The notes below the pieces were generated by a model. The model had not been told where the DNA came from and made no database searches. It was given only the letters and a program-made list of their open reading frames with translations. A stretch of DNA of 28,261 nucleotides, taken from the IMG/VR virus record IMGVR_UViG_3300028844_005976, positions 19,312 to 47,572 of that record; one strand, given 5' to 3'. A program made the position numbers and the translations under genes. How positions within the stretch are numbered: position 1 is the first letter of the stretch; every line of letters starts with the position of its first letter. The DNA is from a virus. Of the stretch, positions 660 through 18,747 are shown piece after piece.

Positions 660-3600
660 TGGCTTTACAACCTTACATATATGACGTTTACATCTACTCT
701 GGTAAAGAGCAAGTGTCCCAAATAGGCTATGTATCCGATGAAAGTAGACCGGGACTAGGAACATACACTAGTCTCCCAAACGAAGAATACAATGGAATAG
801 TTCATGATAATCTTAATAATCTTCAACAACAAAACATATGGCCTTTTGATGGAGTGAACTTATTTCTCAAGGGAATGGTAGTGAGTAATCAAGCAGATGA
901 CGGCGGTCGCGAACCAACCCAATATAGTCATATGTTGGAAATTTTTCTCTTTAATGGAGACAAGGCTGTTGTGGATGGAGAAGGCAATTACGTAGACCTG
1001 CTAGGACCCGTGAGTGGTGAGGACCTTCGAAGAGTATGCAGACACATTCCCAATAGACAAAAGCACGTAATTCACAGAGAGATTTACGCCTATAGATCTG
1101 CAGGAGATAATGAAACCGGTAAAAGGTTCTTAGGGAACGTTTATGAGCCACCTCAAGGTGAAGATGGTTGGAAGTATAGTTTTGTGCCTCTTTATAAGAA
1201 TGCTCCTCTATCAACGGCTGAGGTTACAGAAGCTAAAAGTGTCAATGCTCTTACTGGAAATGTAAACGGATTACCTCGTCGTAGAGGCATCCGGACGGAG
1301 AACGAGGTGTATGATGTTGGATTCAATCCAGAGTTTCCCAATCCTTATTCCGGTGCTTTAATGAATATTCCTCAAACAGTATCTTCATTAATACTAAACG
1401 GTGGACAACTGAGAAACACCAGTAATAATCTTTCTGATCTAGAATCCAATCCTGATGTTGGCTTTGAACCAATAGAGGTGTTTGGAACACCGGATGAATT
1501 TTCCACTGATATTAGAGGAGATGGTGGGTATGTAATGATAGTCAGAATGGGAGGACATGATACTTCAGATGGTGCTGGTTCGGCTTTTACTAGACGAAGA
1601 TCATACTATCGAGTAACGATTCCCAAGAAGATATTCTACAACTTGATAGCTAATCCTGGCTATGCTGGTGGTATGGCTGTTATGGAATGGAAGTTGTCTG
1701 GAGATTCTCGAAAGTTATCATATCATAATGAAGAATTTGGTATTGAGAATCGATATGACAGTGCAAATGAATTAGTACCGGGATTATACCTTCCTAATGG
1801 AGGAACTGACACTGGATATCAAGATGTACTCCAAGATAGTTCTTTGGATGTAGAGAATGTATTCTCCTCTGAGATTATTGATATAGGTAATAACGGAAAT
1901 ATAGAACAACTGAAGGGTGGATTATTTCCACAGACAGCCCCAGATCTATACAATGAATTCACAACTCCGTTTTATAAAATAGATGAGTACTCGGATAATT
2001 TGGTTGATGGCAATAATAGAGATCCAGCTTGGGCATTACGAGCTTTTCAGATAGCAGTAACGGGACCATCAGAGAGAGGTTACCGTATGTGGGAGAGCTA
2101 TCCCAATGAGGGAGGAACTGAGTTGGAGCGATATGGGTATATAGAGAATACTAGACGTATAGCTTCAATAAGTACTAAACAGCCCAGAACAACCAATCTA
2201 CAGGGAAATTTCAATCCATTAAAAACAGTGGATTATTTATCAGCAATGGGAACGTCAATACCACATGAATTTATTACTCCTGCAGGATTAGAAAATAGTA
2301 GATTTTTACAACCTCGTTATGAAGTAAATGGAGATATGTTTCCTATTTTTGCCTACAGTCGTACATCAGAGGAACCAGATTTGTTTAACGATTCTCCAAT
2401 AGCTAAAATTAGTGCAGATCAATATTGTAGAGAGGAATATAATGTAAATAGTGGCGCTGATATGTCGTTTGGATACACTTCAATATCAACGGGTAGAGAT
2501 ACAGAACCTCCTTTTTGGCAATATAGAGATGGTGCATGGACAACAGAATTTGATAATAACAATGAAGAGGGGTATGAGTTCTATTATTTCAATGACATTA
2601 AATGTCTTGAGGTTACAGGAGTAGATAATGGATTCTTGAACCCTCTGCCAGGACCAGAAGTGATAGAAGATTTCACACCACACGTTGATGTATTTGTAGG
2701 AGACGTTAATAATCCTAACAGTTGGACTAGTCTCCAAGACTATTACAATGTGGATACTCAACCAGAAGAATATCAAGCAGCTTCAGCTCTAAATGAAGTT
2801 CACGTTAGAATAACCAATAGAAACCAGTTGGGTGGTACAATGCTTTATCCTAAACTACCAATAGAGGATTCTGTATTGTATGATGGTTTGGAGGTAACAT
2901 TAAATGGGAATACTATTTTTTCCTATGATAGTACAAACGTCGCTGTATCAAGCAGGCTTGGGGTTTTAAATGCAGATGCCTTTTGTGAGACTAAAGGTTA
3001 CGACGCAGTTGACGCTCTAAGGAGCACAATGGTTAATCAGCCCATTGGACCAATACGATACGACATAGCAGGTAGTCCAATCTTAGCAACATCCACTATG
3101 TTTAGATGGGATACCATTCAATGTATAAACACGGTGGAACCGTTAAGTGAAGAAGAGTATATCTTTTCAAACTATAAGTATAAATTTAGAATAATGAGTT
3201 GGGGTGATGAGCCAGAGCTACAAAATTTAAACAGTGGTGAGATTGATAAACTACTAAGAGAGCAATATGAATCCATCAATACAACTAAGTATCCATATCA
3301 AGATGTCTACATGTATCCTGAGTCAGGAGAGTTCTCTACTGATCCCGCACCCATACAAACCATTTCTCATAGATATAGAGAGGGAGGATTATACCAAATA
3401 AGAGGATACGTCTTTAATTATATACAAGATGCAAGACGACCTGAGTTACAACAAGCAGTTAGGTGGAAATACTTTATCAGTACGATATACGTGAATCCTA
3501 CTAGTTATCAAGTAGAAGATTTTGGAGCACTGGGAGGTTATGATTTCACCACACTTCCATATTCCAATACTACGGGATTGACACCTACACCTATAGTTGG

Positions 3601-4096
3601 TGGTTTGAATAATAACTCTCAATACAATAGGTCTATAGACTCAATAAGGGAAGATGGACAATTTACAGCATCAGAGTTGGATGAGCTGTACAAGTTGAAT
3701 AAACTGAGTCAAAACGATGAATTTGGATCTCATGTAAATCAATTGGACTTGTATCAAATAAGAGTTTTTAAAAAAGGAAAGTTTGACATGGAACGGATAA
3801 CCGGTTTGAGTAAAGTAAGCACGCAAGTGGAATATACAAACACAACAGATACAAACAAACCAGCATCTTTGACGACTACTATACAAGATTCACTGGATGC
3901 AGAACTAAAAAGTTCTTGTAACTTGGAATTAAATTTAGACCAAACGGTCGCTGGAACTATTTTGGACAGTTCCGGTCAAGGTACGCTAGGTATAGTAGTA
4001 GGAGATTATAATTTATCTAAACCTTCCGGAGAAGATATCCAACGAGATGATAATATGAAACTACCTGAACAGGGTTCCTCTGATAATGCAATTTAA
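659..4096 (+). CDS. Very large virion structural protein (probable baseplate/tail component)
   Basis: 1145 aa, starting at the ATG that overlaps the previous stop. It is rich in Asn, Tyr, Asp, Gly and Pro and has no signal peptide or hydrophobic helix, as is typical of extended beta-rich phage tail or baseplate proteins. Around residues 897-950 there is a PKD-like stretch (HRYREGGLYQIRGYV) in which an H-x-Y..G-x-Y pattern resembles bacterial and phage Ig/PKD beta-sandwiches. I recognise no enzyme motif. It lies upstream of the 1750-aa tail protein and downstream of a partial gene, consistent with a baseplate/tail-fibre block. Function is inferred from size, composition and neighbours; a receptor-contacting or baseplate wedge protein are both possible. 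Confidence 0.75.
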   Translation: MALQPYIYDVYIYSGKEQVSQIGYVSDESRPGLGTYTSLPNEEYNGIVHDNLNNLQQQNIWPFDGVNLFLKGMVVSNQADDGGREPTQYSHMLEIFLFNGDKAVVDGEGNYVDLLGPVSGEDLRRVCRHIPNRQKHVIHREIYAYRSAGDNETGKRFLGNVYEPPQGEDGWKYSFVPLYKNAPLSTAEVTEAKSVNALTGNVNGLPRRRGIRTENEVYDVGFNPEFPNPYSGALMNIPQTVSSLILNGGQLRNTSNNLSDLESNPDVGFEPIEVFGTPDEFSTDIRGDGGYVMIVRMGGHDTSDGAGSAFTRRRSYYRVTIPKKIFYNLIANPGYAGGMAVMEWKLSGDSRKLSYHNEEFGIENRYDSANELVPGLYLPNGGTDTGYQDVLQDSSLDVENVFSSEIIDIGNNGNIEQLKGGLFPQTAPDLYNEFTTPFYKIDEYSDNLVDGNNRDPAWALRAFQIAVTGPSERGYRMWESYPNEGGTELERYGYIENTRRIASISTKQPRTTNLQGNFNPLKTVDYLSAMGTSIPHEFITPAGLENSRFLQPRYEVNGDMFPIFAYSRTSEEPDLFNDSPIAKISADQYCREEYNVNSGADMSFGYTSISTGRDTEPPFWQYRDGAWTTEFDNNNEEGYEFYYFNDIKCLEVTGVDNGFLNPLPGPEVIEDFTPHVDVFVGDVNNPNSWTSLQDYYNVDTQPEEYQAASALNEVHVRITNRNQLGGTMLYPKLPIEDSVLYDGLEVTLNGNTIFSYDSTNVAVSSRLGVLNADAFCETKGYDAVDALRSTMVNQPIGPIRYDIAGSPILATSTMFRWDTIQCINTVEPLSEEEYIFSNYKYKFRIMSWGDEPELQNLNSGEIDKLLREQYESINTTKYPYQDVYMYPESGEFSTDPAPIQTISHRYREGGLYQIRGYVFNYIQDARRPELQQAVRWKYFISTIYVNPTSYQVEDFGALGGYDFTTLPYSNTTGLTPTPIVGGLNNNSQYNRSIDSIREDGQFTASELDELYKLNKLSQNDEFGSHVNQLDLYQIRVFKKGKFDMERITGLSKVSTQVEYTNTTDTNKPASLTTTIQDSLDAELKSSCNLELNLDQTVAGTILDSSGQGTLGIVVGDYNLSKPSGEDIQRDDNMKLPEQGSSDNAI

Positions 4097-4100
4097 TTAA

Positions 4101-4108
4101 TATTTATT
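4101..4108 (+). promoter_or_regulatory. Candidate late-promoter-like element TATTTATT
   Basis: Sits in the 17-nt gap before the 1750-aa gene, 5 nt upstream of its ATG. It matches the TA[TC]TTAT[AT] element found in three other intergenic gaps. No good Shine-Dalgarno precedes this ATG, so if the element is a promoter the transcript would be nearly leaderless. An 8-mer this AT-rich is common by chance; only the repeated placement is suggestive. Confidence 0.25.
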
Positions 4109-4113
4109 AAAGT

Positions 4114-7100
4114 ATGGCAAAGCTAAAATACAATTACACTCAAGATAAACTGCAAGAAATTCAAGCGGCTGGTGATTCTAATGTAGGACTAAAGTTTAAT
4201 CCTATATCAATGGGTAGTGGAGGACCAGGTCACTTTGTTAGATTATCTGTTTTTGATAGTTCGGACAATTTTGTCCGAAGCTTTCTCACCAATGTATCCA
4301 ATGAGGGTGTACCGGTTATTTATGGATCAAATGCATCCACTCCCACTATTTATCAAAGTCCTCTTTCACCAGATGGTAAGCCAATACTTGCTGGAGTTGT
4401 ATCGGCGGGTGGTGTAACGGTTGATCCTGTAGGAACGTTATCAGCTATAAATTTTTGTAATGGGGAACAAGCCGATGTTGTTGATTCGCAACTTATAGCA
4501 TCTAATGCACAAATATTGGGTGGAGTGAATCAAATATCTTACTGGGATGATGGTTGGGTAGTAGAACAACGTGGTGTCATGATACCATCAGCAGTTTGGT
4601 CAAATATAACATGCATGAGTGTAGGAACAACCGACTATGAAGTCATAGGATCTCCTCAGTTAAACATCTACAGAACAATTAATGATGATAATGTAAATTT
4701 TTACTTTAAACCTACGGAAGCACTCTCATCAATAATTTTACCAACGGGAGATTATAGTCTACAGTTTGAGTTTTTGCGTAGCACGATAGACGTGCTTGCT
4801 AGTAGTATCGTCAATCCTAGATACATAATCAGAGAGATATCACCTAGCAGAAAAGAGATCCGGATAGGTCCTGGATCAGATGGACCAATACCTTTTGTTC
4901 TTAACAACTCAACGCAAGAGGGACAGTTAGGATTCCAACAAACATTTAAAAATTTACTAGAAAGTTCTTCTGATCCAACTGGGGTCTATAAATTTGATTA
5001 CGTGGTTGGACTACCTAAAGGTAGATCATTACCTGTAGTGAATTATGAATTTGATAATAGATCGAGCACATCTCCTACATTAATCATAAAGCTGGGTGAA
5101 GAATTACCCGCTGATATAGTGGTATTAAATCAGATCAGTATTGATCAACAAATTTTTACTACACAAACTGAACAAATATTTTACGAGTCTGATCTTCACA
5201 GAGAACAACAAACAGGAGCTGGCTTAGATGCACAACAATTTGGAGGCTTTTCTCAAGTAGAAGTAAGTGAGCAAATTAATAGTGTGGCTGAAGATCCTTT
5301 TCAAAGTGTAGCGGATCTTACTGGATCTTTGGTGGACACTTCAATATTAAGTTGGGTTAATTCTGGTAGTGGGTTTGGCGTTGATATTAACTTAAATATA
5401 AATTACAACGATTTTACAAATCACACCTTCTTTGGTTCAGCAGCATCAAAATTAGACAACTTTAAAAATAAACTAACTAATATAGAAAACCAATTGAGCA
5501 GGATAAGTCAGTCATTATCAAGTAGTTTTGTTAGTATGGATGGTGACTCAACATCACTAGTTAAATCAAGAAAAACTTCATTTGAAGAAATACAACGGAT
5601 CAAAGATACATTTACTCCATATGAAAGATTTTTATATTATGACTACCAAAGTAACAGCTCAGCATCAGCACCTGGTATAGGAGCTAATTTGGCTCACTCT
5701 AAACCAGTTACTGGTAGTTATACACAATTAACAAGTTATGGAGGATTCCCGCTAGTATACAAACATTCAGCTCCTGGAGCAGATGATGGCACTAGTGACT
5801 CACAACATAACGGCTTAGATTTGTTTAGAGGAAAATACAAAGCGGAAGACAAACCGTTCTTTAATTATAGTGGTTCATTATTTTTAAGTTTCTTATTAAA
5901 GGGTGATCATGATATAGGTGACTTCACGTTAGAAAATATTAACACGAGATATGATGAGTTTGAAAAGGGTAAATTACCCAATACAGCTTTAGGTAGTGGT
6001 TCTATTTTATCCGAGACGGTCACTGGCTCTGAATATAGACGATATATTTTTGAAGCTTCGCAATCTTTTTGGAGACCATATAGACAGCAACGACTAAACA
6101 TGTACAATTGGAATGATAATGCATGGAGTGACAATGTAGATTTTTATCAAATAGTATCTTCCTCAGAAGCACAGTCATCAGCATCTAACTCACCAAGTGC
6201 AAGCAATCCAGATTCATATGCTATTCAAGCTGCGGGTCAGTTTTACAAATCTATAGGTACTACATTCTTAACCGGTAGTACAGCATTATTTTCAGGATCG
6301 TTTATGCCTTCCGGTGAGCTGTTTAGAGTTTCAGCTTCCTTGAGAACAAGAGGAGGAGCCGTAGCTCCATCTGGTATAGCAGCTAACGTTACTTCATCGT
6401 TTATAACGGATGTAAGATTAACAACAAAAAATCCTATAGATGTGTATCCGTTTCATAGTATTTACAAAGTTAGTTCTACAGAATTTTCAAGTTGGTTTGA
6501 TGGTCTTAGAGCATCAGCATCAGCGTATGATGATAATAACATACACGCATTAGTCAACAATATACCAACAGCAATTAAAGAAGACTCTCAATCTACAGAG
6601 TTATTAAGTTTTATAAAATTAATGGGTGAGCAATATGATCTTCTAAGAAATTATATAGAAAATTTTGAGAAGCTATCGTCTAGATCCTATAACAGTCAAG
6701 ACGGCGTACCTCCTAACCTACTACCTATTTTAGGTAAGAATCTTGGTTGGGATTTCACTTCACCATTTACAGGTAGCTTATCTGAATACTTTGGTTCATC
6801 TCAAGAAAATATACGAGTGGGTGGTAGATCTGTAGAGGAAATAACTACTAATACGTGGCGTAAGATTCTAAACAATTTGGTACGAGTTTATAAAACAAAG
6901 GGTTCTGCAGCTAGTATATCTGCGCTATTGAATACTTATGGATATCCAGCGGATATTTTGACCGTGGCGGAGACGGGAGGTTCTTTAGAAGAACACAATC
7001 CTTCTATTATTTCTAATGATGTATCCACATTACTTTCTGGATTATCTGGTCAAGCTGATAACGTAAGTTTTATACAAACAACTGAAGAGTTCTTCTCATT

Positions 7101-12561: not shown

Positions 12562-12597
12562 ATGTGTGACTGTACAGATTGTGGCTGTGGCAAATAA
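12562..12597 (+). CDS. 11-aa cysteine-rich peptide MCDCTDCGCGK
   Basis: The frame reads MCDCTDCGCGK then TAA. Four of eleven residues are Cys in a C-x-C-x-x-C-x-C pattern, the kind of spacing that binds a soft metal (zinc, copper, iron) in metallothionein-like peptides. A strong Shine-Dalgarno and a stop followed shortly by another Shine-Dalgarno and the outer-membrane-like gene suggest it is the first gene of the envelope operon. Alternatively it could be a leader peptide whose translation, sensitive to cysteine supply or ribosome stalling, controls the gene that follows. No family known to me. The short length makes chance possible, but Cys codons are rare in the surrounding genes, which argues against it. 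Confidence 0.5.
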   Translation: MCDCTDCGCGK

Positions 12598-12625
12598 TAA
12601 AAAATAATTTAAATAGGAGAAACAG

Positions 12626-13906
12626 ATGTTAAAGAAAATTTTAATTGGACTATTATTGGTCTCATCTTTGTTTGGTGAAAACGAACTTTGGAAGTTTTTC
12701 AAATACTCTACAGCTTATGCAAGTTTTAGTATAAATGCCCCAAGACACCAAGATGATAGATTTGCTATTATAGGTGGACTATCTACGGGTAACTTAGTAT
12801 TTGAAAGAGATGAAAGAGAACTTAAACCGGATTTTCAAACTTCATTTGGTATAAGAAAAATTGGTAGATTCCAATATGAACCAAAACGAGGTGTTAAATC
12901 TGCTGGTAAGGGTGGAACTTGGTATGATGGTTCAGAACAATCAGCTAACGAGAATGCAACTTTTGGACCAGTTAAGGGTTGGGAATACTTACTAAAATTT
13001 TCCGAAGGTAGACAGTGGGGTGATGAGTACATAAATCAAGAGTATTGGTTGAGATATGTAGGAGAATGGTTTATAGCTAAGGGTGGATATACTGAACTTG
13101 GTTTAGAGGATGTTCAATATATGCAAGGTGACCTTAGAGTAAAGAAGTCTATAGGACAGTTTAACTTTAGTGCGGGTGTAAAGCACAGACAGCATCCAGT
13201 ATATGGTTTTGATGCTGCTATTCTAGATACGACATGGTACAAGGGTCAATGGTGGAAATTTGCTGAGGATGCATTTAACGTTGATGATAATATGTGGTAT
13301 GATCCGACAATGCAAGATGAAGATGGCAATTGGATTAAACAAGATTTATACGAAATAGATCCCAATACAGGTGAGATGAGATTGATAGAAGGCGAGGGTC
13401 CTTTTTGGAACGGTGATGGTCAGTATTGGGGACATGATTGGTTATGGAGAGATGCAGATGGTACTCTCTTTGCATACACCGATAGAGAATATTTTTTATA
13501 TCACTTTCCTGGTATGCTAGAAGAATATATTGAAGGTGTTAAGAACAATCTGGGGTATATGCACGAGACCTCTATAGTATTGGGAGGAGATTTTTATCAT
13601 TATGGTGACAATTGGTGGATACATGCTTGGGGTAATTGGCTACCTTATCATTATGGTCATGATATGTATTCTTATCATAATGCGCATTCATATAAAAAAC
13701 ATAAGGATGAAGGTAATCTTCCCCATGAATTTAAGTTTGCTAATGCTGGTTGGTCTGCATGGAATGATTATGACTTTGGTGCAATATTTGGAGTTAAATT
13801 AAAAGATAACTTGGGTGTATTTTCCGAAGGAAGATATCTATACTACTGGCAAAAACCAGCTTATGATATCAAGATGGGAATTAACTATCAGTTTATGGGA
13901 TTTTAA
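12626..13906 (+). CDS. Phage-encoded outer-membrane beta-barrel-like protein, Trp/Tyr-rich
   Basis: 426 aa with Shine-Dalgarno AGGAGA at 12615-12620. The N-terminus is a clear signal peptide (MLKKILIGLLLVSSLFG, cut probably after FG or FGE). The mature part is unusually rich in aromatics (22 Trp by my count, about 5%) and shows alternating beta-strand pattern, especially near the end (FGVKLKDNLGVFSEGRYLYY ... IKMGINYQF), finishing in a terminal Phe as expected for a BAM-recognised barrel. A central, loop-like segment (about residues 215-300) is acidic and His/Trp-rich. I infer export to the host outer membrane, where it could block or alter the receptor, or change permeability. It is followed after 1 nt by a lipoprotein gene. 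The family was not identified; an exported structural protein is less likely. Confidence 0.7.
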   Translation: MLKKILIGLLLVSSLFGENELWKFFKYSTAYASFSINAPRHQDDRFAIIGGLSTGNLVFERDERELKPDFQTSFGIRKIGRFQYEPKRGVKSAGKGGTWYDGSEQSANENATFGPVKGWEYLLKFSEGRQWGDEYINQEYWLRYVGEWFIAKGGYTELGLEDVQYMQGDLRVKKSIGQFNFSAGVKHRQHPVYGFDAAILDTTWYKGQWWKFAEDAFNVDDNMWYDPTMQDEDGNWIKQDLYEIDPNTGEMRLIEGEGPFWNGDGQYWGHDWLWRDADGTLFAYTDREYFLYHFPGMLEEYIEGVKNNLGYMHETSIVLGGDFYHYGDNWWIHAWGNWLPYHYGHDMYSYHNAHSYKKHKDEGNLPHEFKFANAGWSAWNDYDFGAIFGVKLKDNLGVFSEGRYLYYWQKPAYDIKMGINYQFMGF

Positions 13907-13907
13907 T

Positions 13908-14504
13908 ATGGACCATTATAAAATATATAACAATCTAAAACTATTTTGTTTAATAGGAATGGTGTCTTTATTTGCATTTAATTGTGATAATAGAAATGAA
14001 GAGCCATTAGTAGAAAACATTGAGATGTGGGTAAATGGTTCGGAGTTTAATGTCCGTGAGTACTACGAAAGTATTACAACATACGGAGCATCAGCAGTAC
14101 AATTAGATGGTTCTATAAAAAAGATATTTGTACTACACTTTCAAAGAGAAGATGGTAGAGTTACGCCTGAAAAGGAACACTACGCTTTGATTATGTATGA
14201 TAACAACGGACAGGATAATGGTCAACTAATAGATACTAAATTGTATTTAGGTGGTACACAAATGGATTCATTATTACTTGAAACTACAAGTGGTAGAATC
14301 ACATTAGAGATTGTAGGTTTATCTGATTTTACAGAATTTGCACAAGCCTCGATACAAAAGTATGAAGATGGCAAAGTTAGTGGTATTGCAGATGGATACT
14401 TTTTCAATCCATATAGAAATGAAATGCAACATGGTATAATTATTTTTGATAACTTAGAAGTGGGCACAGACCCTGAAGCTACGTTTTATCAAGGTGTCTA
14501 TTAA
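13908..14504 (+). CDS. Probable lipoprotein of unknown function
   Basis: 198 aa from ATG 13908, one base after the preceding stop. The frame is open further upstream, but that part overlaps the outer-membrane-like gene and lacks a signal peptide. The N-terminus has a basic/polar start, a hydrophobic core (LKLFCLIGMVSLFAF) and Cys26 followed by acidic/polar residues (CDNRNEEP), as in a lipoprotein signal. The lipobox is atypical (A-F-N-C; Asn at -1), so lipidation is likely but not certain. The mature domain is beta-rich (ALIMYDNNGQDNGQLIDTKLYL). Its position between an outer-membrane-like protein and a membrane-anchored coiled-coil protein suggests an envelope role; an outer-spanin-like role is an alternative. 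Confidence 0.65.
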   Translation: MDHYKIYNNLKLFCLIGMVSLFAFNCDNRNEEPLVENIEMWVNGSEFNVREYYESITTYGASAVQLDGSIKKIFVLHFQREDGRVTPEKEHYALIMYDNNGQDNGQLIDTKLYLGGTQMDSLLLETTSGRITLEIVGLSDFTEFAQASIQKYEDGKVSGIADGYFFNPYRNEMQHGIIIFDNLEVGTDPEATFYQGVY

Positions 14505-15137
14505 GTGAGTGAAAATGGAATCAAATTAGGTCAGTTGTTGTGTGATGAAGATGTTATCACAAAAAGACAACTAAGTAAAGCCTTACAAGAACAAGTCAAG
14601 GGTAAGAAAGGTACGCTTGGTGAAATTCTTGTAGATATGGGTGTTTGTTCATTTGAGGATATTACTGATGCTATGATGAACCACTCTTCCGATACTAAAA
14701 AGCACGAAGAAAAACACAACGAGATTCACAAAGAACCTACACCACAACCTGTAGTAGAAGAACCAAAGGTAGAAGAACCCACAGAACTTTCTGAAGAAAA
14801 GGTTATGGGGACCAAGTTCTCAATGTCAGTTCAAACTATAATAGGGTTGGTAACTCTCATATCTACAGCTGTAGGTGGTTATTATATGTTATTACAGGAA
14901 ATTGAAGAAGCAAAAAATCTACCTGAAATAAACGTAGAAAAGATTTTTACAGATGAGTATCCATCTAAACCCGATGGTCACAACTGGCCTCGTTCATACG
15001 AACAATATAAAAATCAAGTTGGTGGTTTGCAAGAAGATATGGATGCTGTTTATGATATGTTAGATGAGTATGAAGAAACTATTAAAGAGTTGGAAAAAGA
15101 CATTAAAGATTTAGAACGAAGAAAGAAGGATAAATAG
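14505..15137 (+). CDS. Membrane-anchored coiled-coil protein with N-terminal MshEN-like (type II secretion ATPase N-domain) motif
   Basis: 210 aa, GTG start immediately after the previous stop. Residues 7-30 (KLGQLLCDEDVITKRQLSKA followed by LQEQ) match the 24-residue RLGxxL..L..L..Q unit of MshEN domains, with Lys for Arg; residues 37-60 are a degenerate second unit (TLGEIL ... EDITDAMM). MshEN domains bind cyclic-di-GMP in some secretion ATPases, but here no ATPase follows. Instead there is a charged Pro/Glu linker (61-103), one membrane helix (about 107-130) and a Glu/Lys coiled coil (about 168-207). Topology would be MshEN in the cytoplasm and coiled coil in the periplasm. Possible roles: a signalling/anchoring protein, or an inner-spanin-like partner of the neighbouring lipoprotein. 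Confidence 0.68.
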   Translation: MSENGIKLGQLLCDEDVITKRQLSKALQEQVKGKKGTLGEILVDMGVCSFEDITDAMMNHSSDTKKHEEKHNEIHKEPTPQPVVEEPKVEEPTELSEEKVMGTKFSMSVQTIIGLVTLISTAVGGYYMLLQEIEEAKNLPEINVEKIFTDEYPSKPDGHNWPRSYEQYKNQVGGLQEDMDAVYDMLDEYEETIKELEKDIKDLERRKKDK

Positions 15138-15146
15138 GAGTCAGTT

Positions 15147-15521
15147 ATGAGATTTATTGTTACTTTATTATTATTTTTATCAGTAACATATGGGCAAATA
15201 AACGATAAGAACTTTAAAGAAAGGATTAATGGTGGAATTGTAGTTGCTATCTTTTCAGCAGAATGGCAAGATGCTGAATTTGATGAAAAACTTATTAAAG
15301 GTATAAAGGGATATCAAGATTGTGATATACTCTATATTAAAAGCGAGGAAGCTCCAAAGGTTGTAAAGAAACTTAGGTTTAGAAACTTTCCTTCTATGGC
15401 TCTTTTTTATGATGGTTCTAAGAAAGAAACCTGGAAAGCAGATATGGATGGTGAATTAGATGTCAGTAATAAAGAAATAAAATCGTCAATTGATGATGTA
15501 TTAGCTGAGGATGTATTCTGA
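15147..15521 (+). CDS. Exported thioredoxin-like protein lacking the CXXC active site
   Basis: 124 aa with ribosome binding site AGGAG before ATG 15147. It has a signal peptide (MRFIVTLLLFLSVTYG, then QIND). The mature part follows the thioredoxin fold: the strand IVVAIFSAEW leads to the active-site position, the strand DILYIKSEE follows, and the cis-proline region is recognisable (RFRNFPSMALFYDG, Pro82). Where thioredoxins have W-C-x-x-C this protein has W-Q-D-A-E, so it cannot do dithiol exchange. It may bind peptides or a partner as a chaperone-like domain in the periplasm. Its stop overlaps the next start (TGATG). Family assignment rests on pattern only. Confidence 0.62.
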   Translation: MRFIVTLLLFLSVTYGQINDKNFKERINGGIVVAIFSAEWQDAEFDEKLIKGIKGYQDCDILYIKSEEAPKVVKKLRFRNFPSMALFYDGSKKETWKADMDGELDVSNKEIKSSIDDVLAEDVF

Positions 15522-15850
15522 TGAGTGAAGATAAAAATGTAACTAAACAAAAATGGGATGGTGTCGAGAGAAGAAAGAATAAACCTGTAGATCAAAAAAA
15601 ATCAATGGAATGGTTGACAGGTCCTGATGAATTGCATGGTGGAGATGGTTTACCGGATTGGATGCAATTTTCCATCACATTGGGAATGTTTGGAATTTTA
15701 TATTGGGTTTTACATTTGTTGTTCCACCCAACATTAGAATTAGACGAAGTACATAGAGATTTATTAAATATTATCTTAGGTACATTCATTGCAACTTTTG
15801 GTAAGACAATAGACTTTTGGTTTAGACACTCAAAGAAGAAGGGTAAGTAG
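15521..15850 (+). CDS. Holin-like small membrane protein
   Basis: 109 aa, start overlapping the previous stop by one base. The N-terminus is hydrophilic (about 45 residues, KWDGVERRKNK). Two hydrophobic helices follow, about 47-69 (WMQFSITLGMFGILYWVLHL) and 80-101 (LLNIILGTFIATFGKTIDFW), then a strongly basic tail (FRHSKKKGK). The second helix ending in ..TFGKTIDFWF resembles the end of three-helix holins of phages and gene transfer agents, where FWFG is typical. That would make it the pore that starts lysis from the cytoplasmic membrane. No endolysin is seen in this window, so the lysis assignment is not confirmed by neighbours. Confidence 0.58.
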   Translation: MSEDKNVTKQKWDGVERRKNKPVDQKKSMEWLTGPDELHGGDGLPDWMQFSITLGMFGILYWVLHLLFHPTLELDEVHRDLLNIILGTFIATFGKTIDFWFRHSKKKGK

Positions 15851-15855
15851 TTATA

Positions 15856-16521
15856 GTGGATATAAACATAGCTACACTTGCAGGACATTTAGCATTTGGG
15901 CTAATAGCATTTTCTTTTCTTGTAAAGGATATATTATGGTTACGTCTACTCAGTATATTAGCAAGTCTATTCTCCGTTTTTTATAATTATTTTATTCCAG
16001 CTAATCCTATGTGGTTAGCTATAAACTGGAACATTATTTTTGTCTTGGTTAATGTATACCATGTAGCTGTCATAATATATGAAAAGAGATCAGTGGATAT
16101 GTCTCCCAAGTTTAAAGAATTGTATGAGACTATGTTTAAAGAACTCACTCCTGTAGAATTTTTAAAAATAACTAATGTTGCTAAATGGATAAAATATGAG
16201 ACTCCGGAACCAATTATAAAACAAAACAAACCAGTTAATGATTTAATTCTAATATACAATGGTACTGTAGATGTTATTGTGGACAGGAAGAAAGTAGCAG
16301 AATTAAAAGATGGTCAGTTTGTAGGAGAGATGTCATTTATCACAGAAAAACCAGCAACAGCTACGTGTGTAGTAAAACACAATACGGAGTGCTTAGTGTG
16401 GCCACAAGAAAGATTCAAGGATTTATTAAAACGTAATCCTTCATTATATTTTACAATACAATCGTTGCTAACTCAAGAAGTATCGAGTAAGTTAGTGACA
16501 TCAAGTAAGTCTAATGATTAA
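15856..16521 (+). CDS. Three-helix membrane protein with Popeye/CRP-like cyclic-nucleotide-binding domain
   Basis: 221 aa from a GTG start 5 nt after the preceding stop. Residues 1-75 form about three membrane helices (HLAFGLIAFSFLV, LLSILASLFSVFYNYF, LAINWNIIFVLVNVYHVAVI). Residues about 110-195 fold like a cNMP-binding domain: IYNGTVDVIVDRKKVAELKD and the phosphate-binding cassette GQFVGEMSFITEKPATATCV (153-172), then LVWPQERFKDLLKRNP. Three helices plus this domain is the architecture of Popeye (POPDC) proteins and their bacterial relatives. The Arg that grips the phosphate in CRP-type cassettes is replaced (PATAT instead of PRxAT), so any ligand may be non-canonical. It overlaps the next gene by 8 nt. 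A phage copy might tune host second-messenger or membrane behaviour. Confidence 0.75.
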   Translation: MDINIATLAGHLAFGLIAFSFLVKDILWLRLLSILASLFSVFYNYFIPANPMWLAINWNIIFVLVNVYHVAVIIYEKRSVDMSPKFKELYETMFKELTPVEFLKITNVAKWIKYETPEPIIKQNKPVNDLILIYNGTVDVIVDRKKVAELKDGQFVGEMSFITEKPATATCVVKHNTECLVWPQERFKDLLKRNPSLYFTIQSLLTQEVSSKLVTSSKSND

Positions 16522-17146
16522 GAAGATAAAAATTAATAGGAGTCCAAAGCCAAGCTGTGATAGAAAGTTAGCTGGTGAGTCTGATGCTCAGTGGAGAAAG
16601 CGATGTGGTCCAAGACCATTGGGATCCATAGGGATGGGTGAGAGTACAACGCGTAGTTCAAAGAAAGGGGCACCTGGAACACTCAAGGCTAAGATAAAAG
16701 GTCCCGTAACAATAGCAAAAGCAAAAGCTCTAAAAAATAGAAAAAATGCTACACCTCACGATAAAGCTCAAGCCAACTGGTTTATAAACATGCAACGTGG
16801 TAAGAAAAAAACCAACGAAGCTCTTGATTTAATTAGAGGCAACCTATGTATAGAGTGTGGATATCCAGTACATGAAGATTTAAAGAAATGGTTCAAACAA
16901 AAATGGGTAAACATAGGCAAGAAAGACAAATCGGGTAAACACCCAGAATGTGGAACTAGTGGAGAAAAGCGTGGCTATGCTAAATGTGTACCAGCATCAA
17001 AGGCTGCTGGGATGTCAAAAAAAGAAAAAGCGTCAGCGACCCGTAGGAAGAGGGCAGCTCAAAATAAAGCAGGTAGAGGTGGTAGAGGGAAACCGGGAAC
17101 TTGTTCCCAAGGTAAAAAACCAATAAAGGTGTCGACTGATGGCTGA
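16514..17146 (+). CDS. Highly basic Cys-containing protein with DUF5872-like region
   Basis: 210 aa, overlapping the previous gene by 8 nt and the next by 8 nt. It is Lys/Arg-rich throughout. Two cysteine-containing parts stand out: an N-terminal segment with C15 and C31 (DAQWRKRCGPRP) and a C-terminal segment, about 112-197, with CIECGYP, then LKKWFKQKWVNIGKKDKSG, HPECGTSGEKRGYAKCVPA and GKPGTC. The latter matches the DUF5872-type sequence (W.NIG..DK.G....CG......GY.KC.PA..A..MS) found in phages and large eukaryotic viruses. Zinc binding and nucleic-acid binding are plausible from composition, but no function is established here. It could be packaged with DNA, given the neighbours with capsid-targeting-like motifs. 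Confidence 0.7.
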   Translation: MIKKIKINRSPKPSCDRKLAGESDAQWRKRCGPRPLGSIGMGESTTRSSKKGAPGTLKAKIKGPVTIAKAKALKNRKNATPHDKAQANWFINMQRGKKKTNEALDLIRGNLCIECGYPVHEDLKKWFKQKWVNIGKKDKSGKHPECGTSGEKRGYAKCVPASKAAGMSKKEKASATRRKRAAQNKAGRGGRGKPGTCSQGKKPIKVSTDG

Positions 17147-18041
17147 TGAATATGTACTTCTACCAAGAGGAAAGACTAAAGTCTTACAGGCAGAGGATAA
17201 AAATTACAAACGAGGTTTGCTGGTCAGACTCAAGAAAGATGGTGGTTATAGAGTAGCATATTGGTACGAAGAACCTGATAAACCTAACGTCGTTGAAGTC
17301 TTGGTTGATGGTGAACGTATAAAAAAAGATGCTAGGGTGGTGGAATTTAAATTTCATCCACAAAATTATTATGAGGAGGACGATATAGTGGAAACTATAA
17401 ATGAAAAGATTACTTTATTTTTAGAGAAGAATGTTCCAACAGATGCTTCTAAGTGGTCATATTATAAATCACAGGCAAAGAAAAAATTTGATGTTTATCC
17501 ATCAGCATATGCAAATGGATGGGCAGCTAAGCAGTACAAAGCTGCAGGTGGTGGTTGGAAAAAATCTAAAACAGAAAATAAAGGTCTGTGGCATAATATA
17601 AATGCTAAAAAGAAGAGAGGTGAGAAATCATCTCCAAAGGGATCCAAAGCATATAAAGCAGCAAAAGCAGCTGGTGATAGACTCAATAGAAATGAAACCT
17701 ATACTAGCGAATACAATGTAGAGAATTACCACGATATAAAAGAGTTTGTTGAATTCATGACATCATATAAACCTGATATCAATGAAGCTGAGTACCAGGG
17801 AAGAAAGGTCAAACTTGGTAAACCAATGCAAGGTGATACAAAGAAATTTAAAGTATACGTAAAGAACCCAAAGGGTAATGTCGTAAAGGTAAACTTTGGA
17901 CAGGGTGGTGATGCTAAAGGCGGTACAATGAGAATTCGTAAAAATAATCCCAAGGCTCGAGCAAACTTTAGAGCTAGACATAATTGTGACTCACCAGGGC
18001 CAAGACATAAGGCTCGTTACTGGAGCTGTAGAAAATGGTAA
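17139..18041 (+). CDS. Basic phage protein with KKKFDVYPSAYANGWA motif and conserved Cys-Trp C-terminus
   Basis: 300 aa. The N-terminal part (1-95) is mixed beta (VLVDGERIKKDARVVEFKF). Residues about 105-142 carry WSYYKSQAKKKFDVYPSAYA and GWAAKQYKAAGGGW, a motif also seen in DUF5872-type viral proteins. The C-terminal part (about 212-300) runs INEAEYQGRKVKLGKPM ... KFKVYVKNPKGNVVKVNFG ... FRARHNCDSPGPRHKARYWS, ending CRKW; I recall this C-terminal block as widespread in marine myophage proteins of unknown role. The DINE/AEYQG step is a [IL]-x-E site of the type cut by prohead proteases of T4-like phages, so the C-terminal domain may be released in the head. Overlaps both neighbours by 7-8 nt. 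Confidence 0.72.
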   Translation: MADEYVLLPRGKTKVLQAEDKNYKRGLLVRLKKDGGYRVAYWYEEPDKPNVVEVLVDGERIKKDARVVEFKFHPQNYYEEDDIVETINEKITLFLEKNVPTDASKWSYYKSQAKKKFDVYPSAYANGWAAKQYKAAGGGWKKSKTENKGLWHNINAKKKRGEKSSPKGSKAYKAAKAAGDRLNRNETYTSEYNVENYHDIKEFVEFMTSYKPDINEAEYQGRKVKLGKPMQGDTKKFKVYVKNPKGNVVKVNFGQGGDAKGGTMRIRKNNPKARANFRARHNCDSPGPRHKARYWSCRKW

Positions 18042-18238
18042 AACTAAAAGACCTATTAAAAGAAGAAGAAGATGAAACCGCGCTTCCAATGATACAAGCA
18101 TTAAATGTATTGAGTGCTGATATCAGACGAGCAAACTATAAAAAACAATTAGAATATGGTAAAAAAAATTCCAAAGAGATGGCAGACATAATCAAAGCCG
18201 CTACCATGTTATCTAAAATTGTAAAGAGATTGAAGTGA
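18035..18238 (+). CDS. Small helical protein with N-terminal capsid-targeting-like motif MVKLKDLLKE
   Basis: 67 aa, overlapping the previous gene by 7 nt and the next by 4 nt (GTGA). The first ten residues, MVKLKDLLKE, are nearly the same as the start of the next two gene products and end in L-K-E, a [IL]-x-E site. The rest is predicted alpha-helical and basic (IRRANYKKQLEYGKKNSKEM ... KIVKRLK), like small DNA-binding or internal head proteins. I recognise no family. If the motif is a capsid-targeting peptide, the mature product would start at about residue 11 and be packaged in the head. Confidence 0.7.
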   Translation: MVKLKDLLKEEEDETALPMIQALNVLSADIRRANYKKQLEYGKKNSKEMADIIKAATMLSKIVKRLK

Positions 18239-18747
18239 TCAAACTAAAGGACTTACTAACAAAAAAAAAATCTCTAAAAGAAGAATTTACAAATAAAGAT
18301 TCTAATGAATATCGAGTAGAGCTTGTAGATCTCATAGGGAAGCCATCTTACGAAACCAGTGAGGAAGCTGGATGGATAGCACCAACGCTACCAAAAGAAT
18401 ATGGAACGTATACCATGAACATCACTAAAGTCGATAAGGTGTTCATTATAGATGAGTCAATACCTCACAGTTTTCCTGCAGATCATAGAGATTACGTATA
18501 TACACAATATGCAGTACCAGCTTGGCAGCAAAGCAAGGGTGCACATAATGTAGAGCCAGCTATGATCGCTGACTTTGCAAAGGTTACCGGATCTATAATC
18601 ATTGATCCATTGAAAGGCACTATCACAGCTCGTTGTGGAGATTTGGTGGCAAACGATAAAACTATACAGTTTGTCTTGGATGTTGTAGACGGAAAAGTTC
18701 AACCCACCAAAGAGGAATACTCTAATCGAATTTTAGATAAAAAATGA
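18235..18747 (+). CDS. Unknown 170-aa protein with N-terminal MIKLKDLL motif
   Basis: Starts at GTG 18235, overlapping the previous stop as GTGA and the next start as ATGA, so translation is coupled on both sides. The first eight residues MIKLKDLL repeat the start of the neighbours; the motif is followed by a lysine run and then SLKEEF, where L-K-E at 14-16 is a possible protease site. The remainder is an alpha/beta domain of about 150 residues (KVDKVFIIDESIPHSFPADH ... IIIDPLKGTITARCG ... IQFVLDVVDGKV) that I do not recognise. There is no signal peptide or membrane helix. Inferred to be co-packaged or co-expressed with the adjacent genes. Confidence 0.68.
   Translation: MIKLKDLLTKKKSLKEEFTNKDSNEYRVELVDLIGKPSYETSEEAGWIAPTLPKEYGTYTMNITKVDKVFIIDESIPHSFPADHRDYVYTQYAVPAWQQSKGAHNVEPAMIADFAKVTGSIIIDPLKGTITARCGDLVANDKTIQFVLDVVDGKVQPTKEEYSNRILDKK

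Follow-up and report, generated by a model that had tools for sequence, protein, structure and literature searches.

We describe here a block of four consecutive genes, A, B, C and D, whose products are predicted to be distributed across the host cell envelope and which is carried by uncultured, mostly marine, T4-like phages. The block lies within a 28,261-nucleotide stretch of DNA (the window) comprising bases 19312-47572 of the 47,572-base virus record IMGVR_UViG_3300028844_005976 from IMG/VR, which is incomplete. A first-pass annotation of the window had proposed that six consecutive genes, A to F, form a single set directed at the envelope. The evidence supports well that the module is real and conserved, with the unit of conservation being A-B-C-D and not all six genes, and to our knowledge it is undescribed in the literature that we searched.

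Loci were gathered by similarity to the window proteins, a procedure that misses very divergent versions, and the viral records are mostly fragments. Sufficient upstream sequence was available for 64 distinct D loci. C lies directly upstream of D in all 64, and A and B are present within six genes upstream in 62 and 45, respectively. Across the 64 loci, pairwise distances for each of the four genes correlate with those for the others (rho 0.41-0.63) but hardly with those of a backbone gene, o4 (rho -0.03 to 0.19); the genes are therefore inherited together, as one block that travels between phage backbones. Median identities are 0.73 for A, which is the most conserved of the core genes, 0.63 for C, 0.54 for D, 0.49 for B, and 0.33 for o4. 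In a scan of IMG/VR, relatives of A were found in about 148 viral loci, those of D in 99, and those of F in 96. The block is present in viral records from many metagenomes, yet neither A nor C has a match among the 50,697 phage records of INPHARED, where F has one weak partial match, over its cyclic-nucleotide-binding domain (CNBD).

Genes E and F are separable passengers that occur and evolve independently of A-B-C-D. F directly follows D in 11 of 50 loci. Of 45 distinct F loci, 18 lack both D and E in the six genes upstream, and in 12 E is directly 5' of F. F is single-copy, and some genomes with A have it at another location; its distances do not track those of D (rho 0.03). The proposal of a dedicated envelope-spanning gene set is thus upheld for A-D, by adjacency and by co-divergence across divergent backbones, and fails for E and F; scattering of the genes without co-occurrence, the neighborhood pattern that would speak against such a set, was not seen for A-D, but partly so for E and F.

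The product of A has a signal peptide, and its AlphaFold2 model contains twelve long strands, an insert of about 120 residues at approximately 192-310, and a C-terminus ending in NYQFMGF; a C-terminal F or W is present in 63 of 79 members. These are the features of an outer-membrane beta-barrel, with a mean predicted local distance difference test score (pLDDT) of only 67.6 for the model. VIA-align places it with 12-stranded barrels (EstA, Z 16.2; KdgM, 15.3; NalP, 14.8; NanC, 14.7), and a whole-sequence search of the PDB gave no match. A is apparently not a secretin; none is listed among its VIA-align folds, an absence that by itself does not exclude one. Scanning bacterial genomes with two patterns for homologues of A matched 51 stretches, none of which was confirmed; the patterns are narrow, making this a weak negative. 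In locus L074 two A-type genes lie in tandem (2766-5355), 72% and 46% identical to A, and the second is a member of a divergent subfamily also found in L173 and L175.

B is a lipoprotein whose lipobox cysteine, Cys26, does not vary among 21 aligned members; the context of this residue is mostly (S/N/A/G)C(E/D)D. Alignment with 20 relatives places its start at the ATG at 13908 rather than the GTG at 13815. The body is beta-rich (AlphaFold2 pLDDT 83); Foldseek gave nothing at E < 0.001, and the sole VIA-align match is a weak one to LpqH (Z 7.9, near background). D is an exported protein that profile searches match to thioredoxins (best E 3e-15), and the cis-proline, Pro82, is present in all 68 members. 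The CxxC motif of thioredoxin oxidoreductases is present in none of the 68, which sets D apart from the usual redox enzymes.

C is a bitopic protein with an N-terminal MshEN-like domain (approximately residues 7-60), a Pro/Glu-rich linker, a single transmembrane segment (approximately 105-123), and a coiled coil. In hmmsearch its N-terminus matches PilF (8e-10), PilB (3e-7), and MshE (2e-3), the only PDB sequence matches at E < 0.01, and it likely has the MshEN fold. Topology predictions put the MshEN-like domain in the cytoplasm and the coiled coil in the periplasm. In the first of the two half-motifs for cyclic di-GMP, G9, L12, L23, and Q30 are present in 68/68 members, with arginine replaced by lysine in 57/68 and glycine by aspartate in 67/68. 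Motif II is degraded: its arginine is T, S, K, or A in nearly all members, and the final glutamine is kept in 3/68, being otherwise H or S. The GSPII-A domain of PilF does not bind the nucleotide and deviates in motif II as C does (PMC12002112, PMC5013675).

Three or four genes for type IV (pseudo)pilins come after the block in many relatives, encoding a pilin-like protein of 208-222 residues and up to three proteins with class III signals (KGFTLIELIMVTIILGILAAVAIPRY) that match PF07963 (7.6e-8 and 1.7e-8), an association absent from the first-pass annotation. Of 50 viral records, 25 carry PF07963 prepilins. Among 30 D loci, 11 have a prepilin on the downstream side within 5.5 kb of D and none has one upstream, and of 80 loci lacking D, 3 contain one. 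Such tandem genes are found at L070:3625-5125, L159:10058-11965, and L067:7863-9931. Phage pilins as such are already catalogued (PHROG 3433); like those morons these are phage-encoded prepilins, but here three or four are in tandem and tied to A-D. No prepilin peptidase (Peptidase_A24) or T2SSE ATPase was found above cut-off in the 26 records searched.

The favored interpretation, to which we give a probability of about 0.4, is that A-B-C-D engages machinery of the host, either that for type IV filaments or the type II secretion system (T2SS). It starts from the export of A, B, and D, the bitopic character of C, co-inheritance, and frequent pilin neighbors, all read from sequence or models. 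The barrel A and lipoprotein B would sit in the outer membrane, D, a redox-dead thioredoxin fold, in the periplasm, and C in the inner membrane, with its MshEN-like domain in the cytoplasm and its coiled coil reaching into the periplasm, so that A-D form an envelope-spanning assembly. The MshEN-like domain of C may dock on host type IV filament or T2SS components, and the (pseudo)pilins of the relatives would be processed by host enzymes; because these relatives add pilins without a peptidase or ATPase above cut-off, they presumably depend on those of the host. The outcome would be that host pili or secretion are taken over or jammed, excluding other phages or providing an exit route. The pilins together with the MshEN domain of C favor an envelope assembly acting on host filament or T2SS machinery over lysis or second-messenger signaling. 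C resembles the type IV pilus and T2SS (the N-domain of PilB/MshE, and PilN/PilO-type proteins) in its cytoplasmic MshEN-like domain and periplasmic coiled coil, and class III-signal pilins lie nearby in relatives; unlike those systems, the MshEN domain is fused to a transmembrane anchor and not to an ATPase, and a 12-stranded barrel, not a secretin, is the partner in the outer membrane.

Several observations weigh against this interpretation. MshEN domains occur outside pilus ATPases too, and motif II of C is degraded. The window's own incomplete 47.6-kb record contains no prepilin, and 29 of 45 D loci have none within nine genes downstream. No homologue of a secretin, PilM/N/O/P, or GspL has been shown, with secretin and platform protein not searched for, and in the records, which are fragments, prepilins are found without Peptidase_A24 or T2SSE, so that a complete type IV pilus or T2SS is not represented. 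A bolder proposal, which we consider rather unlikely, is that the phages build a trans-envelope apparatus of their own (barrel, lipoprotein, MshEN-anchored coiled coil, pseudopilins, and micro-metallothionein) that plugs into or replaces host filament parts.

The first-pass annotation had also offered a lysis or superinfection-control module, which is still a live rival without being the favored reading. An elaborated lysis module, in which C and B bridge the periplasm like a spanin, E or a neighboring holin with three transmembrane segments permeabilizes the inner membrane, and A weakens the outer membrane, is doubtful. The topology is compatible with a two-component spanin (Rz/Rz1), C being a bitopic inner-membrane coiled-coil protein with i-spanin-like topology beside an outer-membrane lipoprotein; a holin family (PHROG 3427, 5e-27) and E are found near the block in several relatives, and other phage groups have a micropeptide (described below) beside a transmembrane/coiled-coil gene. 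However, sizes and added genes differ: B, at about 200 residues, is far above classical Rz1-type o-spanins and is absent upstream in 19 of 64 loci while C-D persist, C has a cytoplasmic domain, and the barrel and thioredoxin-fold protein have no counterpart in known lysis cassettes. Moreover, no endolysin was recognized beside the block, and conservation of the block does not extend to E. Superinfection exclusion or receptor masking is unlikely: A would insert in the outer membrane with the assistance of B, C, and D and block later phages, following the logic of Lom, Cor, and Llp. Lambda Lom and the PA-2 LC porin are virus-encoded outer-membrane proteins, and A is likewise an exported barrel, the best conserved gene of the core, located directly after divergent tail-region genes in most relatives. 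It differs in having twelve strands, a 120-residue insert, and a place in a four-gene block; no sequence similarity to Lom or the LC porin, nor to any known exclusion protein, was found, and exclusion leaves the inseparability of C and D and the trailing pilins unexplained.

It is very unlikely that the genes form a second-messenger set, in which F senses a cyclic mononucleotide and C cyclic di-GMP, either reporting host state across the envelope or sponging Pycsar/CBASS-type signals. F does match CNBDs, including that of PycTIR, and C matches MshEN. Against this, the phosphate-binding arginine and POPDC motifs are present in no F, C mostly keeps motif I but deviates in motif II like the non-binding GSPII-A domain of PilF (PMC12002112), and F neither co-diverges with the block nor stays adjacent to it. 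Signaling across the envelope, suggested at first pass, is therefore weak, and we rejected signaling through cyclic di-GMP or cyclic mononucleotides as the principal interpretation on the binding-site residues of C and F. A chance neighborhood of unrelated moron genes describes E and F, which come and go independently, but is largely refuted for A-D by the C-D adjacency in 64/64 loci, the presence of A in 62/64, and co-divergence independent of the backbone gene tested; for these it is extremely improbable.

F has three transmembrane helices and a CNBD fold, and it matches Pfam POPDC1-3 (3.1e-16; 60.2 bits vs. a cut-off of 28.1), cNMP_binding (6.5e-16), and the PADLOC PycTIR CNBD (1.7e-13). 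Popeye (POPDC) cyclic AMP effectors have three transmembrane segments and a Popeye domain with DSPE and FQVT motifs (PMC6952887). F resembles them, and Pycsar CNBD effectors, in architecture and in passing the Pfam POPDC cut-off, but DSPE and FQVT are present in 0/63 F members, and it is not assigned to the Popeye effectors. The motif GEMSF(L/I)T(E/D)(K/R)xATA is found in 62 of 63 distinct members, and the phosphate-binding arginine at the key position of the canonical GE...PRxA signature in 0/63. No Pycsar cyclase was seen among the annotated neighbors of F, where no systematic cyclase search was made. Among bacteria, a relative of F was found only in a metagenome-assembled genome of Phycisphaeraceae (37% identity; L170:5001-5660). 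E comprises two subfamilies sharing GxFxxxFxKxIDFWF; it has two transmembrane-like stretches and is described as holin-like, and the holin match itself is weak and restricted to a sister subfamily (PHROG 689, 3.8e-4).

The gap before A holds ATGTGTGACTGTACAGATTGTGGCTGTGGCAAATAA (12562-12597), preceded by TATAGGAGAATAAA, and its start is the first coordinate of the region singled out at first pass, where neither this micropeptide nor its association with A had been mentioned. Comparable cysteine-rich micro-open reading frames (micro-ORFs) occur beside 28 of the 79 distinct A genes and beside 7 of the 1,515 others (Fisher p 8e-33), and in at least three of those seven the micro-ORF is of the same family. 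It lies upstream of A in eight loci and downstream in 20, and never on both sides; members of 9-26 residues are found next to A in L001, L025, L067, L111, L113, L117, L230, and L249. Scanning IMG/VR for a Shine-Dalgarno motif followed by M-C-x-C-x2-C-x-C identified 73 contigs from several recurrent phage contexts, and in 66 of them the reading frame closes after 9-23 residues. A control pattern, reversed but of the same composition, gave 0 matches vs. 21 real ones at the same spacing, and chance was rejected as the origin of these peptides. Among similar peptides, changes in cysteine codons lean more toward synonymous (18 synonymous, 12 nonsynonymous) than do those in other codons (39 and 101). 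An attenuator acting through cysteine codons, as an upstream open reading frame, is judged unlikely, as the micro-ORF precedes different genes and occurs on either side of A. The micro-ORF sometimes lies beside a phage NifU/IscU-like gene (e.g. L286). Judging from its sequence pattern, the micropeptide probably binds soft metal ions, and these peptides look metallothionein-like: they share C-x-C and C-C spacing and a very high cysteine content with metallothioneins, but cellular ones are far larger, whereas the micropeptides have 9-26 residues, are phage-borne, and bind metal only putatively.

Table 1. Genes and micro-ORF of the region in window coordinates, with the evidence for each assignment.
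Feature	Coordinates	Strand	Evidence
Cys-rich micro-ORF, 11 aa, MCDCTDCGCGK	12562..12597	+	Shine-Dalgarno TATAGGAGAATAAAATG; same-family micro-ORFs beside A genes
A, outer-membrane beta-barrel protein	12626..13906	+	signal peptide, AlphaFold2 model, VIA-align
B, lipoprotein	13908..14504	+	alignment, lipobox census, AlphaFold2
C, bitopic, MshEN-like domain, transmembrane segment, coiled coil	14505..15137	+	hmmsearch, hydropathy, adjacency to D
D, exported thioredoxin-fold protein without CxxC	15147..15521	+	profile matches
E, small holin-like protein, two transmembrane-like stretches	15521..15850	+	shared motif, weak PHROG match of sister subfamily
F, Popeye-like, three transmembrane segments and CNBD fold	15856..16521	+	Pfam and PADLOC matches

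The six genes A-F (12626-16521) are same-strand open reading frames in a row, separated by +1, 0, +9, -1, and +5 bp, which confirms the tight packing described initially (Table 1), and each has homologues in tens of independent viral contigs. The protein types named for A, B, C, D, and F also hold when checked by signal peptide, topology, profile, and model. A promoter-like element had been reported in the gap before A; the 23 sites found vs. 21.1 expected are at chance level, no T4-late-type box is present on the coding strand of the gap, and its role as a promoter region was rejected. Elsewhere the record contains a T4-like baseplate wedge gene, the nearest named relatives being Microcystis phage Mel-JY01 and Flavobacterium phage immuto (30-35%), and RuvC-like, primase, and gp46/SbcC-like genes 3' of the six-gene stretch. 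Gene G (16514-17146) encodes a KWFKxKWVNIGKK-type domain (PHROG 23735, 7e-18) and is often near E in relatives. The N-terminal sequence MxKLKDLLxE is present on several small proteins, including that at 18035-18747 and many relatives (113 distinct genes in the fetched loci), and may serve as a leader that targets the head, as in T4 internal proteins. One phage (L171) encodes both a peptide deformylase (795-1520) and a DnaK-like chaperone (2285-4180), for which tblastn gives matches to proteins annotated as DnaK.

An analogous second envelope cassette is present in another phage group (L267:2-6589 and L257:2211-5183), in the order exported 877-residue protein, 289-residue protein, micropeptide, transmembrane/coiled-coil protein, lipoprotein, and exported protein. 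The 289-residue protein has a signal peptide and the look of an outer-membrane protein, the transmembrane/coiled-coil protein matches the profile of C weakly, and the 877-residue gene has a sub-cut-off match to a type IX secretion system (T9SS) sorting tail. Three features hint at a host in the Bacteroidota or the Fibrobacteres-Chlorobi-Bacteroidetes (FCB) group, namely a glutamine following signal peptides, acidic residues following the lipobox, and this sub-cut-off T9SS tail domain, but the Shine-Dalgarno motifs before most genes count against it, and the host was left unassigned.

These data bring to light an ultra-small cysteine-rich peptide family that is easily overlooked by gene callers and recurs in several unrelated phage groups. 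If type IV filaments are indeed taken over by A-B-C-D, the block would offer a case, open to experiment, in which a phage of lytic type rewires the pilus or secretion machinery of its host from within.

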